This document shows, one piece after another, positions 2,908 to 28,577 of a stretch of DNA of 28,577 nt. The notes under the pieces are model-generated. The model saw only the letters and a program-made list of their open reading frames with translations. It was not told the origin of the DNA and made no database searches. The position numbers and the translations under genes were made by a program. Each line of letters opens with the position of its first letter. The stretch's first letter is position 1. This DNA is from a virus, in the IMG/VR virus record IMGVR_UViG_3300025483_000053, positions 1-28,577 of that record; one strand, written 5' to 3'.

Positions 2908-3444
2908 ATGTTAGAATTATTAGCAACAAAACACGATGATTGGGTTAGAATAGCTTTTAGTATGACTGGAAATATGGATGACGCACAAGATTTGGTGCAG
3001 GATATGTATCTAAGGTTAGATAGATTGGGTAAAACAAAAGAGCAAATATCATACAAAGATACAGTAAATAGGTATTTTATTTGGACTGTTTTATTTAATA
3101 TGTTTAAAGTATCTAAGAGAACTAAAGTTTACAAAAAGTTAGATACTTGTGAGTTAGTTGGAAATGAAGAGTTGAAAGACTCTAATTACGATGTTGATGA
3201 GGATTATTCTTTTGATGCTTTAAGCGCTAGAGTAAAGGATATAGTTAAAGAATGGAAAGTTTACGACAGACAATTATTTGACTTATATTTTATGCAGGGT
3301 CAGTCTTTAAGGCAGATAGCAAACGGAGCAGGTATTGGACTAAACTCTATACATAACTCAATTAAGAGCTATAGGGATATACTTAGGCAAGAGTTATCAG
3401 AAGATTTAATGGATTACTTTAACGGAGATTATGATAAAATATAA
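2908..3444 (+). CDS. Phage-encoded sigma-70-like RNA polymerase factor
   Basis: The 178-residue protein has the two-domain form of a small sigma factor. A region 2 core lies near residues 10-65, with the typical DDAQDLVQDMYLRL helix. A region 4 helix-turn-helix spans about 120-160 (YFMQGQSLRQIANGAGIGLNSIH). It resembles sigma-like factors often annotated in Bacteroidetes phages. Such a protein would direct the host core polymerase to particular promoters. It is the best candidate reader of the motif repeated before the packaging and structural blocks (5878, 14130, 22305, 24929 and 27204). That link is inference; the fold is not in much doubt. Confidence 0.8.
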   Translation: MLELLATKHDDWVRIAFSMTGNMDDAQDLVQDMYLRLDRLGKTKEQISYKDTVNRYFIWTVLFNMFKVSKRTKVYKKLDTCELVGNEELKDSNYDVDEDYSFDALSARVKDIVKEWKVYDRQLFDLYFMQGQSLRQIANGAGIGLNSIHNSIKSYRDILRQELSEDLMDYFNGDYDKI

Positions 3445-3447
3445 ATT

Positions 3448-3945
3448 ATGAAACAAGATAAATATTATTTAGATTTAGAAGAAAGAGGTTACTATAACAC
3501 CATAGACAAAAGGTCAAAAGATTATAGAGAGTATAAGCAATGGAAAGCTACTAAGGTAGAAGAAGGTTACAAGTCACATAAGAAAAGTGTAGAGAAGCAA
3601 TCTAAAGGACTAGGAGACACTATTGCGAAGATAACTAAAGCAACTGGTATAGATAGGGTTGTTAAGTTTATAGCAGGAGAAGATTGTGGGTGTGACGAAA
3701 GACAAGAGAGGTTTAACAAAGACTTTAAGTATAAGAATGTTAAGTGTCTTAAAGAAGATGACTATAAGTATCTATCTAACTTTCTAGCTAATAAGAAAAC
3801 TACAATTAGTTATGACGACAGGGTTAGGGTAATAGGAATATACAACTATGTATTTATTACCAACGAGAAAAGAACTACAAGTTGCTCGTCCTGTATAAGT
3901 AAAATAGTTAAAAACCTAGAAAGGTATATGAAGAATTACCAGTAA
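3448..3945 (+). CDS. Conserved phage protein with CGC and CSSC cysteine motifs
   Basis: The 165-residue protein has a Lys-rich N-terminus, then a segment GLGDTIAKITKATGIDRVV followed by EDCGCDERQERFN, near residues 54-90. This amphipathic helix plus Cys-Gly-Cys pattern recurs in proteins of Bacteroidetes phages as I recall the family, but I know of no established function. A second Cys pair, TTSCSSCISKIV, is near the C-terminus. The paired cysteines could bind metal or form disulfides. It is the last gene before a strong terminator and probably shares a transcript with the sigma factor gene 3 nt upstream. Confidence 0.6.
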   Translation: MKQDKYYLDLEERGYYNTIDKRSKDYREYKQWKATKVEEGYKSHKKSVEKQSKGLGDTIAKITKATGIDRVVKFIAGEDCGCDERQERFNKDFKYKNVKCLKEDDYKYLSNFLANKKTTISYDDRVRVIGIYNYVFITNEKRTTSCSSCISKIVKNLERYMKNYQ

Positions 3946-5877: not shown

Positions 5878-5899
5878 TTAAAAGTAGTTATCTTAATAT
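5878..5899 (+). promoter_or_regulatory. Candidate phage late promoter motif, copy A
   Basis: TTAAAAGTAGTTATCTTA is followed by ATAT. It is one of five near-identical copies on the + strand, each before a packaging or structural block. Here it abuts the ATG at 5898, so a transcript from it would be leaderless or nearly so. Confidence 0.6.
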
Positions 5900-6281
5900 G
5901 AATAGTAAAGAGATAAAGCCAACTGATGGCAGAAAAGGTAATTCTAGGAAGAAATCTATACCTAAGTTACCCATACCTCAAGGAGAGAGGTCTAACAAAC
6001 CAGCACTTAACCAAGCAAAGAAGAGTCGTAAGAAACAATATGCAAAGAAAGCTATCAAGAATGTATTTGGTAGTGAAGTTGCTATGTTTGAGTCTATGGC
6101 TAAGAAAGCTAAAGAGGGTAGCTACAACCATATGAAACTACTTACTGATATGATGTATGAAGAAGATAAGGATAATACAGGAACAACTGTTAAAGCTCCT
6201 GTCATTAACTTTATAGGTGATAGCGAGATAAGTAAGAAGGTTAAGGAAAAGATTATAGACGTAACACCTAAAGATGAGTAA
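5898..6281 (+). CDS. Putative terminase small subunit
   Basis: The 127-residue protein has a Lys/Arg-rich N-terminal half that could bind DNA, then a helical segment (NVFGSEVAMFESMAKKAK) and an acidic C-terminal part ending IDVTPKDE. It lies directly upstream of the large terminase gene and overlaps it by 8 nt, the standard position of the DNA-recognition subunit of the packaging motor. Sequence similarity to known small terminases is not evident by eye, so the call rests on context, size and charge. It starts right at late motif copy A. Confidence 0.6.
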   Translation: MNSKEIKPTDGRKGNSRKKSIPKLPIPQGERSNKPALNQAKKSRKKQYAKKAIKNVFGSEVAMFESMAKKAKEGSYNHMKLLTDMMYEEDKDNTGTTVKAPVINFIGDSEISKKVKEKIIDVTPKDE

Positions 6282-7485
6282 ATTAAACATACACACAAAA
6301 TACATACCACTATTTAAAGAACCTTCAAGATACTTCGTTGTAACTGGAGGTCGTGGTTCTGGTAAGTCATTTAGTATTAACGTATTCCTTCTTAACTTAA
6401 CCTATGAGAAAGGTCATAAGGTTTTGTTTTCTCGTTATACAATGATATCAGCACACACTTCTATTATCCCTGAATTTATAGAAAAGATTAACCTAATGGG
6501 AGTTCACGAAGACTTTAGGATAACTAAAGATGAGATAATGAATCTAAAGACAGGTAGCTCTATAATATTTAAAGGTATTAGAACCTCATCTGGTAACCAA
6601 ACAGCAGCACTTAAATCATTGAATGGTATTACAACGTTTGTAGTAGATGAAGCAGAAGAATTAGTTGATGAAGAAACATTTGATAAGATAGATTTCTCTA
6701 TACGTTCGCAGTTAAAGCAGAACAGAGTTATTTTAGTGATGAATCCGACAACTAAAGAGCATTGGATATATAAACGTTGGTTTCAATCAGAAAATGTCTT
6801 AGGAGGCTCTAATATGAGCTTAAATGATGTGACTTACATACATACTGATTATAGAGATAACAAAGAGAACTTATCAGAGTCATTCTTACAACAGATTATG
6901 ACAATGAAGAAGAAGAGACCAGATAAGTACGAGCATCAAATACTTGGAGGTTGGTTGAATAAAGCTGAAGGTACTATAATAAGAAAATGGAGAGTAGGAG
7001 ATTACATACCTACAGAGCTTACTTGCTATGGACAGGATTTTGGTTTCTCTGAAGATTTAACGACCCTAATTAAGATATCTGTAGATAAAAATGCTAGAAA
7101 GGTATGGGTAAAAGAGATATTTGGTCAGAAAGGATTAAATACTTCACAGATATACGGTAAAAATAAAGCTGAATGTGGTTTAGACTTGATAGTCTGTGAT
7201 AATTCAGAACCCAGACTAATAAATGAGCTTAAAGTATTGGGCCTTAACATAAAACCTACTATAAAGAAGAAAGGGAGTATATTATCTGGTATAGCACTTA
7301 TGCAAGATTACGAGATAATAGTAGATAGAAACTCTCACGGTATCATAAGAGAGATTAACAACTACGTTTGGAAAGATAAAGGAGAAGTTCCAGTAGATAA
7401 ATTTAATCACTATATGGATGCGATACGATACGCTATGATGTATCTAATACAAGGAGTTAATAGTGGTGTCTATACAATTAGATAA
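6274..7485 (+). CDS. terL: Terminase large subunit (packaging ATPase/nuclease)
   Basis: The 403-residue protein is a PBSX-type large terminase. Walker A, GGRGSGKS, is at 25-32. Walker B, FVVDEAEEL, places D125 and E126. The coupling motif is RVILVMNPTT. The RNase H-like nuclease domain shows GQDFGFSED (D255), VCDNSEPR (D309) and HYMDAIRYAM (D382) as metal-binding acids. It pumps DNA into the procapsid and cuts it at the start and end of packaging. It overlaps the putative small subunit. Unusually, portal and capsid genes lie about 18-20 kb away in this window, not next to it. Confidence 0.95.
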   Translation: MSKLNIHTKYIPLFKEPSRYFVVTGGRGSGKSFSINVFLLNLTYEKGHKVLFSRYTMISAHTSIIPEFIEKINLMGVHEDFRITKDEIMNLKTGSSIIFKGIRTSSGNQTAALKSLNGITTFVVDEAEELVDEETFDKIDFSIRSQLKQNRVILVMNPTTKEHWIYKRWFQSENVLGGSNMSLNDVTYIHTDYRDNKENLSESFLQQIMTMKKKRPDKYEHQILGGWLNKAEGTIIRKWRVGDYIPTELTCYGQDFGFSEDLTTLIKISVDKNARKVWVKEIFGQKGLNTSQIYGKNKAECGLDLIVCDNSEPRLINELKVLGLNIKPTIKKKGSILSGIALMQDYEIIVDRNSHGIIREINNYVWKDKGEVPVDKFNHYMDAIRYAMMYLIQGVNSGVYTIR

Positions 7486-7488
7486 GAC

Positions 7489-7790
7489 GTTTAATATGAA
7501 GAGGTATGTTTAATATGATGGGGTCTACTTCCAACCTTCCTCAATCCACCAATCACAGTTAGGATATAAATCCAGTAAATCATTTACAACCTTGTCAATT
7601 AATTTTGGCGAGGCTTCTGTGTTTAATATGAAGGGTTTAAGTTCTTTTTTAGTTTGAATAAATAGTGTTTCCATTTTTGTTTTATGTTTAATATGATGGG
7701 TAAAATATTTCTGTTTAATATGGAGGGTAAGACGTTTAATATGAACCCCTCTATGTTTAATATGATGGGGTGCGTTTAATATGATGGGGG
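7489..7790. repeat. Array of eight GTTTAATATG-AWGGG repeats (iteron-like)
   Basis: The 10-mer GTTTAATATG starts at 7489, 7508, 7621, 7686, 7713, 7734, 7755 and 7774, always preceded by C or T and usually followed by ATGGGG or a close variant. The three exceptions are AAGAGG at 7489, GAGGG at 7713 and AACCCC at 7734. Start-to-start distances are 19, 113, 65, 27, 21, 21 and 19 nt, so the right-hand cluster recurs about every two helical turns. One copy (7621) lies inside a small leftward gene; the others are non-coding or in its leader. Frames differ between copies, so this is not a peptide repeat. A replication origin, packaging site or regulator-binding array are the candidates. Confidence 0.8.
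7525..7674 (-). CDS. Small leftward hypothetical protein (49 aa)
   Basis: The 49-residue protein begins METLFIQTKKELKPF, contains a plausible helix (KLIDKVVNDLLDLYPN) and ends WWIEEGWK. The ATG at 7674 follows an A-rich leader typical of this phage. An in-frame start at 7821 would add 49 residues, but these are encoded mostly by the GTTTAATATG repeats read in shifting frames, so the shorter form is preferred. A leftward promoter at 7912-7881 would give a leader carrying five repeat copies (7686-7774). Copy 7621 is translated within the gene as KPFILN. No family was recognised. Confidence 0.5.
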   Translation of the reverse strand: METLFIQTKKELKPFILNTEASPKLIDKVVNDLLDLYPNCDWWIEEGWK

Positions 7791-7880
7791 TGTGCCTGAT
7801 TTTCTGCCTTGCTTGTTGCATTATTTAAAATGAATATAAACAGTAAATTTACTTGTATATGTAATATTTTTTTCATATAG

Positions 7881-7912
7881 CAAACATACGTCCATAAAAT
7901 TGTTATTTTCAA
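7881..7912 (-). promoter_or_regulatory. Leftward Bacteroidetes-type promoter
   Basis: Read on the minus strand, TTG (7912-7910), a 21-nt spacer and TATGTTTG (7888-7881) match the TTG ... TAnnTTTG consensus. It would transcribe leftward through the repeat array into the 49-aa gene. Confidence 0.6.
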
Positions 7913-7954
7913 CAAAAAAAGTCTTGAAAAAGTTTGTGTATTAAAAAAGATTAT

Positions 7955-7968
7955 TGTACGCGCGTACA
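7955..7968. promoter_or_regulatory. Perfect 14-bp palindrome TGTACGCGCGTACA
   Basis: TGTACGC and GCGTACA are exact reverse complements. The GC core stands out in an A/T-rich region. The site lies about 40 bp from the -33 boxes of both divergent promoters, a likely position for a shared dimeric regulator or initiator. No known operator was recognised. Confidence 0.55.
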
Positions 7969-8006
7969 TTATATATACAAAATGAATAAAAAATAATTTA
8001 AATATA

Positions 8007-8039
8007 TTTGTTTGGTATTATAAAAAAGTTATATATTTG
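8007..8039 (+). promoter_or_regulatory. Rightward Bacteroidetes-type promoter
   Basis: TATATTTG at 8032-8039 fits TAnnTTTG. TTTG at 8007-8010 (21-nt spacer) or 8011-8014 (17-nt spacer) serves as the -33 box. It lies 35 bp before the first gene of the small-protein cluster. Confidence 0.65.
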
Positions 8040-8073
8040 TAGAGTAAAACAATAACTATTAAAAATAAACAAA

Positions 8074-8160
8074 ATGGAAACAATTAAACAAGTATTAAAA
8101 AAAGCAAATGAAATATTAAAAGAATGTGCAGCTGGTGCATCTTACGCTATAAAACATTAA
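8074..8160 (+). CDS. Micro-protein (28 aa)
   Basis: The first frame after the 8032 promoter encodes METIKQVLKKANEILKECAA plus eight residues, an amphipathic helix with a single Cys. The AAACAAA-ATG start context matches its neighbours, and the next gene begins 4 nt after the stop. Its role is unknown. It could be a small effector or the leader peptide of the cluster. Confidence 0.5.
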   Translation: METIKQVLKKANEILKECAAGASYAIKH

Positions 8161-9982: not shown

Positions 9983-10390
9983 TTAAACATCAACTCTGTG
10001 ATATTCTACTGCTCTGGTTGTTATCTCTAGTATGTCTGCTATATCTTTACTACTTATAGTTGGCTTTAGATTCACTATCTCTCTAACCTTCTCTTTAGTC
10101 TTTACTTTAGCTTCTCTACTTATCTCTCTTATCTTAACATCTATATCTAAGCTTCTTCTCATATCTGCTAAATACTTCTCTTGTCTTTGTTTATATTCTT
10201 TACCCCAATTATATGTATGGTGGTGTATCCAAGACATAGGTTTGTTATAGTCTTCAAAGTTGCTTATGTAATGCCTAGACCAAATATTATCTGGTTTAGA
10301 CATCCACACAAACTCATAACCATCATAGACTACTTTATGGTTAGTTACTTCTTTTAGGTTCTTTAATTGTTCTGTAGTCCAGTTAGTCAT
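9983..10390 (-). CDS. Helix-turn-helix DNA-binding protein
   Basis: The ATG at 10390 (MTNWTTEQLKNLKEV) is used because it follows the stop of the upstream 37-aa gene by one base; an in-frame GTG 33 nt earlier is less likely. The 135-residue protein has an aromatic/His-rich middle (MSWIHHHTYNWGKEYK), a basic helical linker, and a C-terminal winged-helix-like HTH (TISSKDIADILEITTRAVEYH). It is the last gene of the long leftward operon and is probably a regulator. Its target is unknown. The palindrome at 7955 and the GTTTAATATG array are candidate sites, which is speculation. Confidence 0.65.
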   Translation of the reverse strand: MTNWTTEQLKNLKEVTNHKVVYDGYEFVWMSKPDNIWSRHYISNFEDYNKPMSWIHHHTYNWGKEYKQRQEKYLADMRRSLDIDVKIREISREAKVKTKEKVREIVNLKPTISSKDIADILEITTRAVEYHRVDV

Positions 10391-11146: not shown

Positions 11147-11572
11147 TTATAATTTATTTGTTAAATATCTTTCTAATCCTGCTAATGCCCTCCAAGCTAC
11201 TTTAGTTAAGTGTAGTACTCCATCATCATCTAAAGGGTTTATAGTATGGTCTATTAAGTGTCTAGTTAAAGCATCATACTCATCTTTAGACTTATCCATA
11301 TCCCAATGTAGAGGTTTGTCTGGATGGTGTTGGTCATTACCAGCTTGGCTACACTTAGCAACCTCTTTTAAGGCATTTGGAAAGTATTTTAATACTCCAC
11401 TAAACACAGGTGTAGCTTTTCTCTCTGCTGCTTTACTTGGAGCTTTATTAAACCCACTAAGCATATCTTGCTCGTAGTGTTCTCCACTATTACCATTCTG
11501 AGCTATAGTTCTTAATCTTTTTTCGTGTTCTGCTGATTCTAACATCTCTAGTTGTTTCTCTCTTGCATTCAT
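11147..11572 (-). CDS. DUF5664 / dGTP_diPhyd_N-like protein
   Basis: The 141-residue protein has, from about residue 54 onward, the pattern of a phage family annotated as DUF5664 or dATP/dGTP diphosphohydrolase N-terminal domain: PVFSGVLKYFPNALKEVAK, AGNDQHHPDKPLHWD, a SKDEYDALTRHLIDH helix, and HLTKVAWRALAGLERYL. Conserved Glu, His and Asp residues are compatible with metal-dependent nucleotide pyrophosphohydrolysis, but activity is not established for most members. A role in nucleotide-pool or modified-base metabolism is inferred. The start shares one base with the stop of the DnaA-like gene. Confidence 0.7.
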   Translation of the reverse strand: MNAREKQLEMLESAEHEKRLRTIAQNGNSGEHYEQDMLSGFNKAPSKAAERKATPVFSGVLKYFPNALKEVAKCSQAGNDQHHPDKPLHWDMDKSKDEYDALTRHLIDHTINPLDDDGVLHLTKVAWRALAGLERYLTNKL

Positions 11573-11988
11573 TATGTTATTATTTTAAGTATTTTATTTA
11601 AATGATTTATATCCTTACCTATAAGTGCATTGTAAACCTCTCGTCTTATATCACTTATTACACTTTTCCTAGCTATACTACTACTCTGGTAAGTATCAGT
11701 ACTTTCTATTATAGCTCTAAGCTCTAGATAATACATTTTGTACTTAGGCATTAACTCTAAGTCATTATCAACTACTTTTATAGCGTGTAGTACGTTTTCG
11801 TGCTTCTGACCAAACAAGTCTGCTATGTCTTGGTATATCATACCTGTAAGCTCTCTTATAATCTTACAAGCGTACATTCTAGGTCTAACTATATTAGTCT
11901 TTCTGCTTTTTACTCTACAATCTGTCTCGAAGTACTTGTTTACTTGGCTTATCACTTCCTTTGCTATCTCGTATTGTTCCTTTGTCAT
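11572..11988 (-). CDS. Phage DnaA domain IV-like DNA-binding protein
   Basis: The 138-residue protein matches the C-terminal DNA-binding domain of DnaA. SRKTNIVRPRMYACKIIREL corresponds to the region containing the basic loop. YQDIADLFGQKHENVLHAIK corresponds to the DnaA signature helix-turn-helix that contacts DnaA boxes (GRDHTTVLHA in bacterial DnaA). The AAA+ ATPase domain is absent. It could bind phage origin sequences or compete for host DnaA boxes. A separate RepA-like ATPase gene at 505 would supply ATPase function. It belongs to the leftward early operon and begins inside a possible 45-aa Cys-rich frame. Confidence 0.8.
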   Translation of the reverse strand: MTKEQYEIAKEVISQVNKYFETDCRVKSRKTNIVRPRMYACKIIRELTGMIYQDIADLFGQKHENVLHAIKVVDNDLELMPKYKMYYLELRAIIESTDTYQSSSIARKSVISDIRREVYNALIGKDINHLNKILKIIT

Positions 11989-26454: not shown

Positions 26455-26474
26455 GATTAGTATAACATAAACTA

Positions 26475-26514
26475 GAAAGGGTAGGTAAGCCTAGAGCCTA
26501 CTTACCCTTTTTTA
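26475..26514 (+). terminator. Strong terminator after the major capsid gene
   Basis: AAAGGGTA (from 26476) pairs with TACCCTTT, extended inward by GGTAAGC against GCCTACT with one mismatch and one G-U pair. A T-run follows. Partial termination here would set a high ratio of capsid over downstream products. Confidence 0.85.
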
Positions 26515-27664: not shown

Positions 27665-28577
27665 TGGAAGATAAGAAAAAGCAACAAAACGTAAGGATAC
27701 TTAATCTATCATCTTACGAAGCACCAGAGGTAAAAGAAGTTCACAATAGAGATTGGGTTTCTTGGGGTGCTGATAATAATTATTTCGGTAGACTTATAGA
27801 ATTAGACACTTCTAGTCCAACTAACGCTAGATGTAATAATGGTATTGCTGATATGGTATTTGGTAGAGGTATAGAATCTACTAACTCTGAGTTGTTACCA
27901 GAACATTATGTAAGAATGAAGAAACTATTAAGACCTAGAGAAATTAAAAAGGTTGTAATAGATAGAAAGAAATTAGGACAAGCTGCAATTAAACTTACTT
28001 ATAATAGAGGTAAGACTAAGATATTAAAGGTATCTCACTTTCCTATGGAAACATTAAGAGCTGAGAAAGCAGATGCTAAAGGAATTATACAAGCATACTA
28101 CTATCATCCTAATTGGGCAGATGCTAAACCTAGTGATAAGCCTAAAAGAATACCTTGCTTTAAACACGGAAGTAAATCACAAAGAGAAGAGATATATGTG
28201 ATTAAGCCTTATAGAAGTGGTTTTTACTACTACTCTACTCCAGATTACCAAGCGTGTTTACAGTATGCAGATTTAGAATGTGAAGTATCTAACTACCATA
28301 TATCTAATATACAAAACGGATTAGCTCCTAGCTTATTTATTAATTTTAATAATGGTATTCCTAACGAAGAAACACAAGGTGCTATTGAAAGAAAGATTAA
28401 TGATAAGTTCTCTGGTAGCTCTAATGCAGGTAGAACTATTATAGCATTTAACGAGTCTAAAGAAACTCAGGCAGAAATAGAAGCTATACACTTACCAGAT
28501 GCTCACGCACAATATCAGTTCTTATCTGATGAAGCTAGAGAAAAGATTATGTTAGGACACGGTATTGTATCTCCTAT
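27664..28577 (+). CDS. Portal protein (5' part, cut by window edge)
   Basis: The frame from ATG 27664 remains open to the right edge (about 304 residues visible) and begins MEDKKKQQNVRILNLSSYEA. It then shows WVSWGADNNYFGRLIEL and SPTNARCNNGIADMVFGRGI, the typical opening of portal proteins in Bacteroidetes phages, with later VVIDRKKLGQAAIKLTYNRG and GLAPSLFINFNNGIPNEETQ. Portals form the 12-subunit ring at the head vertex through which DNA is packaged by terminase. The large terminase gene is nearly 20 kb to the left, so the packaging genes are split on this map. Confidence 0.8.
   Translation, partial: MEDKKKQQNVRILNLSSYEAPEVKEVHNRDWVSWGADNNYFGRLIELDTSSPTNARCNNGIADMVFGRGIESTNSELLPEHYVRMKKLLRPREIKKVVIDRKKLGQAAIKLTYNRGKTKILKVSHFPMETLRAEKADAKGIIQAYYYHPNWADAKPSDKPKRIPCFKHGSKSQREEIYVIKPYRSGFYYYSTPDYQACLQYADLECEVSNYHISNIQNGLAPSLFINFNNGIPNEETQGAIERKINDKFSGSSNAGRTIIAFNESKETQAEIEAIHLPDAHAQYQFLSDEAREKIMLGHGIVSP

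Follow-up and report, generated by a model that had tools for sequence, protein, structure and literature searches.

The phages described here carry short sites in the gaps after gene ends. All sites have one orientation and bound blocks of genes, and from clade to clade the core word shifts in all copies together; gene-block boundaries are marked most densely at the junction where the late genes, ending in the terminase gene terL, give way to the early genes. The array studied lies in a 28,577-nt stretch of viral DNA (IMG/VR record IMGVR_UViG_3300025483_000053, henceforth termed the window) and is apparently a member of a large, undescribed family in uncultured phages. We propose, tentatively and with somewhat less than even confidence, that it consists of stoperator-like sites for a putative factor that punctuates rightward transcription at the late/early junction, and that it is not a packaging or replication site. 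This reading is proposed because the sites occupy the gap after a gene end, keep one orientation, occur several to a genome, appear independent in their spacing, and use a clade-specific word. There is, in our estimation, close to an even chance that these sites represent an undescribed class of cis-elements, i.e., stop-codon-proximal and orientation-locked, built from a clade-specific AT-rich core and a GGG or CCC run, set at odd distances, and serving as genome-wide punctuation for a putative factor. If transcription is punctuated in this manner, the factor would be a new directional transcription barrier; if the array is an origin or a pac site, it would provide a readable landmark for these phages. 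The array constitutes a conserved regulatory signal of a large clade of uncultured phages whose hosts are probably Flavobacteria.

The array in the window

The window contains eight exact copies of the 10-mer GTTTAATATG, all on the + strand between positions 7489 and 7783 (starts at 7489, 7508, 7621, 7686, 7713, 7734, 7755, and 7774; successive spacings 19, 113, 65, 27, 21, 21, and 19 nt), and no scattered copies elsewhere. Dinucleotide-preserving shuffles of the window yield a mean of 0.185 copies of this word and at most five copies of any 10-mer per 303 nt. The original prediction of a 10-mer repeated eight times within about 300 bp is confirmed by these numbers, and a chance origin is rejected. 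The first part of the array (7489-7523) comprises two copies, the first located 4 nt past the terL stop codon, the same place as in relatives. The second part (7686-7789) holds the last five copies at spacings of 27, 21, 21, and 19 nt, in agreement with the 19-27 nt initially given for the right-hand cluster. The AWGGG tail assigned to the repeat is exact in five of the eight copies and differs at 7489 (AAGAG), 7713 (GAGGG), and 7734 (AACCC). By type, six tails are GGG-like, one is AAGAGG, and one, at the third-from-last copy of the second part, is AACCCC.

Upstream of the array lie terL (6274-7485, + strand; PHROG phrog_2, E=1.5e-42), its usual left neighbor, and a putative small terminase subunit gene (TerS type A, 5898-6281, + strand). 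As the latter has neither a Pfam nor a PHROG match, its name is assigned from position. The array is split by a small leftward gene (7525-7674, − strand, 49 aa, METLFIQTKKELKPFILNTEASPKLIDKVVNDLLDLYPNCDWWIEEGWK), an ORF starting from an internal ATG. The predicted overlap of the repeats with this gene and its leader holds true: the third copy (7621-7635) resides within it and is conserved in orthologues. The suggestion that coding does not cause the repetition also stands, since more than 100 contigs retain the core, many of them without an ORF overlapping it; we rejected a coding explanation on these grounds.

Homologues of the 49-aa gene occur in 16 of 162 motif loci, and the cargo between copies varies among relatives, comprising small leftward genes, rightward mini-operons, and a tRNA-Thr. 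The tRNA-Thr (CGT) is found at 3594-3673 of locus L286, between terL and array. Cargo thus differs between close relatives while the flanking copies persist, as expected if the repeats were recombination sites bounding exchangeable cassettes. We consider this highly improbable: no recombinase was found in a search that covered tyrosine integrases (PF00589), and homologous recombination between repeats would give the same outcome without a purpose-built array.

Distribution among phages and hosts

A 16-mer scan of IMG/VR returned at least 119 stretches; many among the matches listed are arrays of two to eight copies, all direct repeats, with 19 nt as the commonest spacing. The same array, in the same orientation, lies downstream of terL in more than 100 IMG/VR contigs whose terL is 60-98% identical to that of the window. 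In total, about 122 motif loci bear terL, and every array at loci with such a relative is oriented like terL. Most terL-linked arrays begin within a few hundred nucleotides of the terL stop, the first copy in many lying 4-23 nt past it. All array-bearing relatives are metagenomic contigs with gene calls that are simple ORFs, and trees and counts drawn from them are not independent. The repeats are thus conserved in close relatives rather than absent or scrambled, which favors a function.

Among 84,980 GTDB species genomes, we detected no array and only 70 pairs of the word. These are attributed to chance because their flanks and spacings differ and none carries the tail, and a host or prophage origin was rejected accordingly. 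No array occurs in any isolated relative checked, including Nonlabens phage P12024L, whose TerL, 49.6% identical to that of the window, is the best match in the phage collection searched, and DNA searches of isolated phages gave no convincing match. A literature search for the 10-mer retrieved unrelated papers only, and we did not find the signal described in the literature searched. The carrier phages probably infect Flavobacteria, an assignment based solely on their TerL resembling that of Flavobacteriaceae phages. In these comparisons, the TerL hit of GenBank record OQ791282.1 ("Shigella phage Henu10") equals that of Riemerella phage vB_RanS_PT15 in coordinates and identity; the record may be mislabelled.

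Core words change in concert between clades

More distant relatives lacking GTTTAATATG show the same architecture with another core word, altered in all copies together. We sampled 80 TerL relatives irrespective of the motif; ranking 10-mers by copy number within 900 nt downstream of terL and taking the top one recovered these words without prior knowledge. Alternative words are TTAAACATAGTAGG (T2), TTAAACGCAGTAGG (T3), TTAAACATAATA, GTTTATTATGGAGGG, TGTGAATTTAATAGGGG (T5), and AATTCAATAGGG/CCC (T6), and TGTGAATTTAATAGGG and AATTCAATACCC are likewise among the concertedly changed words of distant relatives. Core words cluster strongly on the TerL tree, with 18 changes versus 40 in shuffles. 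Several word classes mix GGG with CCC tails, and an array of class T6 may have C-type tails throughout.

Owing to the concerted change, a cognate partner is searchable by co-variation and the model becomes directly testable. The initial idea of a functional direct-repeat array, probably read by a trans-acting factor, gains support from this turnover and from the very broad conservation. One relative that has lost the array, G031 (L305), carries a different tandem repeat, AGCTAATGGG, in seven copies at about position 27900.

Position and orientation of the sites

Across 18 large contigs and genomes, all 137 GC-tailed copies are on the rightward strand and none is on the other, also beside the few leftward genes; at position 11593 of G009, copies still point rightward between two leftward genes. 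Although 87.5% of this DNA is coding, 113 of the 137 copies are intergenic. Clusters begin a median of 12 nt after the end of the left ORF and 267 nt before the start of the right one, and the left neighbor is a rightward gene for 41 of 47 clusters. Because the location of the copies follows the end of the gene before them and not the start of the next, we rejected a promoter for the phage sigma-like factor, which is also contradicted by the array being the sole site in the window.

Several genomes carry more than one array. In lineage B (G002, G004, G005, G006, G008, and G015), extra copies follow the capsid gene and other structural genes, all rightward, and some of them are terminator hairpins with T-runs. 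T2 and T3 genomes contain several arrays or scattered sites, those of the T2 genome G037 again all being rightward. No array was seen where structural genes directly follow terL (e.g., L346). In G011, where terS-terL has moved, terL extends to 17928 and the array begins only at 28646, ca. 11 kb away. There it comes after the last of the replication genes, flanks a leftward gene, and adjoins the early region. This separation indicates that the array is a feature of the junction that leads into the early operon and not of terL as such, and the preserved end-of-block position counts in favor of punctuation. The rightward orientation between leftward genes in G009 counts against it, being also suited to replication or packaging.

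The terL neighborhood had suggested a packaging function. The array does mostly adjoin terS-terL in a locked orientation, but this association is largely positional, as G011 demonstrates. That the repeats are pac sites, bound by TerS where headful packaging starts, would fit the permuted appearance of the genomes and an enrichment of contig ends just after the array, although this excess has no sharp position and falls in an AT-rich, hypervariable region. Of 145 arrays assessed, TerS type A was detected with 143; at the other two, a gene is inserted at this place, and tblastn finds TerS in both loci. In the single clade whose TerS is short and unrelated, terL has no array nearby, yet this TerS switch is one event on the tree and several TerS-A phages also lack an array there. 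Given, in addition, that genomes can have more than one array and that single copies also follow the capsid gene, we judge a pac function decidedly improbable. A fixed cos end at the array is disfavored because the genomes assemble as circles or break elsewhere.

Candidate binding factors

In 17 large array genomes, the only universal proteins are an AAA_25 protein (505-1362 in the window), the sigma-like protein (2908-3444), the protein at 3448-3945, TerS, TerL, and structural proteins. The two binders proposed at the outset, the HTH protein at 9983 and the DnaA-like protein at 11572, occur in only five and three of these genomes, respectively, and both are missing from G013 (114-nt terminal repeats), which has the same core; they were therefore rejected as general binders. 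The DnaA-like protein (11572-11988) matches the C-terminal DNA-binding domain of DnaA (Pfam PF08299, E=2e-10) and is confined to the subclade of the window. The conserved protein at 3448-3945 is disfavored as well, as it is also present in the array-less P12024L and in TerS-B phages. We found no sign of a lysogenic repressor, since none of 12 genomes encodes a tyrosine integrase (PF00589) and the GTDB hosts hold no prophage copies of the array. A repressor of this type is thus an unlikely binder.

The AT-rich early region and replication

Directly right of the array, the window reaches its highest AT content over 250 bp (7820-8069, 17% GC). The situation is similar in 14 of 15 other genomes, and in all 15 genomes where this was measurable the lowest or near-lowest GC occupies the same place. 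This early control region includes a perfect 14-bp palindrome (TGTACGCGCGTACA, 7955-7968), with degenerate counterparts in relatives, and a match to a Bacteroidetes-type promoter (TTTG-N21-TATATTTG, 8007-8039, + strand) that precedes the small-gene operon, the presumed early operon, whose first ORF encodes 28 aa (8074-8160, + strand).

An initiator that binds the repeats as iterons and melts the neighboring AT-rich stretch on the right would make this region a replication origin. Direct repeats at 17-27 bp, a core that co-changes as with a cognate initiator, and the adjacent GC minimum with early promoters nearby are all consistent with an origin. The AT-rich DNA is, however, simply the early promoter region as well; at least two arrays 1-3 kb apart plus scattered single copies in many genomes fit poorly to a single origin; the DnaA-like protein, like the HTH protein, is missing from the majority of array genomes, where another initiator or one of the host may act; and a GC-skew check, advised at the outset, revealed no switch at the array. 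Plasmid iterons are moreover generally in helical register (PMC5043065), whereas the repeats are not (see below). They resemble the iterons of plasmid and lambda origins in being tandem and about two turns apart beside AT-rich DNA, and differ in phasing and in occurring as several arrays per genome. Overall, we regard an origin as unlikely.

The second part of the array always precedes the early control region with its promoters, palindrome, and Fur-like boxes, as would be expected of operators or enhancers of the early small-gene operon bound upstream of its promoter. The distance to the promoter nevertheless varies from tens to several hundred base pairs, and structural genes as well as convergent junctions are followed or marked by copies too, making this role very unlikely.

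Spacing and RNA folding

Helical register was not found in the three best-sampled classes (resultant at 10.5 bp of 0.12 for T1, 0.19 for T2, and 0.26 for T3), and the sites therefore appear independent. Of 215 unique spacers between neighboring copies, 191 give an odd spacing, and the bias extends to every word class, bearing in mind that related sequences are not independent; counting only distinct spacer lengths in T2 and T3, 18 are odd and two are even. This rule is a regularity that every mechanism must account for. As a speculation, fold-back template switching could cause spacers to change by even lengths and could also convert GGG into CCC.

The G- and C-run tails could pair in rightward transcripts with the core as loop, forming an RNA element that terminates transcription, protects a 3' end, or binds an RNA-binding protein. 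Folding of the transcribed strand is indeed enriched across 54 arrays (mean z -1.67, 41% below -2) relative to the other strand (-0.65, 9%), 51 of 99 arrays have a C-run preceding their penultimate copy, well above other positions, and several lineages contain intrinsic terminator hairpins that present the core as their loop or have it immediately 5' of the stem (e.g., CTTTAATATTAGGGGGCTcttGTTTAACATTAGCCCCTTTTTTT and TAGGGGTATCGTTAAACGCAGTACCCCTTGCGTTTTTTT), some of them followed by T-runs. Such hairpins tie the element to transcription ends and are also in line with punctuation. The window array, by contrast, folds no better than shuffles (z -0.3 to -0.8, and -0.4 in the 54-array comparison), stems around the core show no covariation beyond re-dealt controls, and most T2, T3, and T5 arrays are unstructured, some being all-G or all-C. 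We consider an RNA element quite unlikely. A known RNA family was rejected, as no Rfam family matches the array.

A GC-rich hairpin with a T-run is present for some copies in other lineages and absent for the window array, which we rejected as a simple Rho-independent terminator on its z values. Like such terminators, certain pairings of a G-tail with a C-tail produce a stem with a T-run behind it; unlike them, most arrays have no such stem, and the core word is conserved independently. Directly past the major capsid gene, the window itself contains an intrinsic terminator without the motif (26474-26511, AAAGGGTAGGTAAG...CTTACCCTTTTTT); in lineage B, a terminator at the same post-capsid place carries it.

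Comparison with stoperators and a proposed mechanism

Stoperators are the repressor sites of cluster A mycobacteriophages such as L5 and Bxb1 (PMC6550527, PMC9283540), and they and their repressors undergo concerted, clade-specific turnover (PMC6550527). The sites described here are similar in being short asymmetric words in short intergenic gaps, with an orientation that tracks transcription, several per genome, and a clade-specific consensus. In contrast to the 20-30 dispersed sites of stoperator systems, the window has one array massed in tandem at a single junction, and dispersed sites are few even in lineage B and G037. Further differences are the GC tail of either polarity, the odd spacing, and that no repressor, integrase, or lysogeny was found. 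The array would thus work like a stoperator without being classed as one, with repressor binding and a block to elongation suggested by analogy. Pac sites with TerS-binding repeats are likewise oriented and near terS-terL, whereas these arrays are separable from terS-terL, multiple, and scattered.

In the proposed stoperator-like mechanism, the copies would be asymmetric, direction-specific sites for a putative trans-acting factor from phage or host. The factor presumably binds them as double-stranded DNA and would stop or dislodge RNA polymerase elongating from terL, so that it does not reach the early control region. A strong barrier would result from eight copies, and some G-tail/C-tail pairs have additionally turned into intrinsic terminator stems. 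Swapping of GGG and CCC tails counts against this mechanism, being unusual for a site contacted as double-stranded DNA; so do the missing integrases and prophage copies and the confinement of the window's copies to one array. The barrier may also be redundant, because ordinary intrinsic terminators adjoin the array in G004, G011, L299, L300, and the T3 clade.

Additional elements near the arrays

In four T3 phages (L317, L325, L326, and L328), terL is followed by a promoter-like TATATTTG and a stretch of ca. 100 nt before the array. The stretch ends in a perfect terminator hairpin and is a possible small RNA; a tandem GACA(N) repeat of 7-9 nt follows the array. A long ORF-free leader precedes the first structural gene in G005 (540-860) and, at the same place, in G015; it has no Rfam match and might be a structured RNA. 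Relatives also contain boxes of the form TTATTTAGAATnATTCTAAATAA in the AT-rich early region. Fur/PerR-like boxes (TTATTTGGAATAATTCTAAATAA and variants) lie right of the arrays beside early promoters in L293, L296, L299, L304, G001, and G003, with three in tandem in L299 and a weak trace at about 7828-7850 in the window. A query containing these boxes gave weak matches in Flavobacterium and in Prevotella Lak phages, and the phages may use them to read iron or peroxide regulators of the host.
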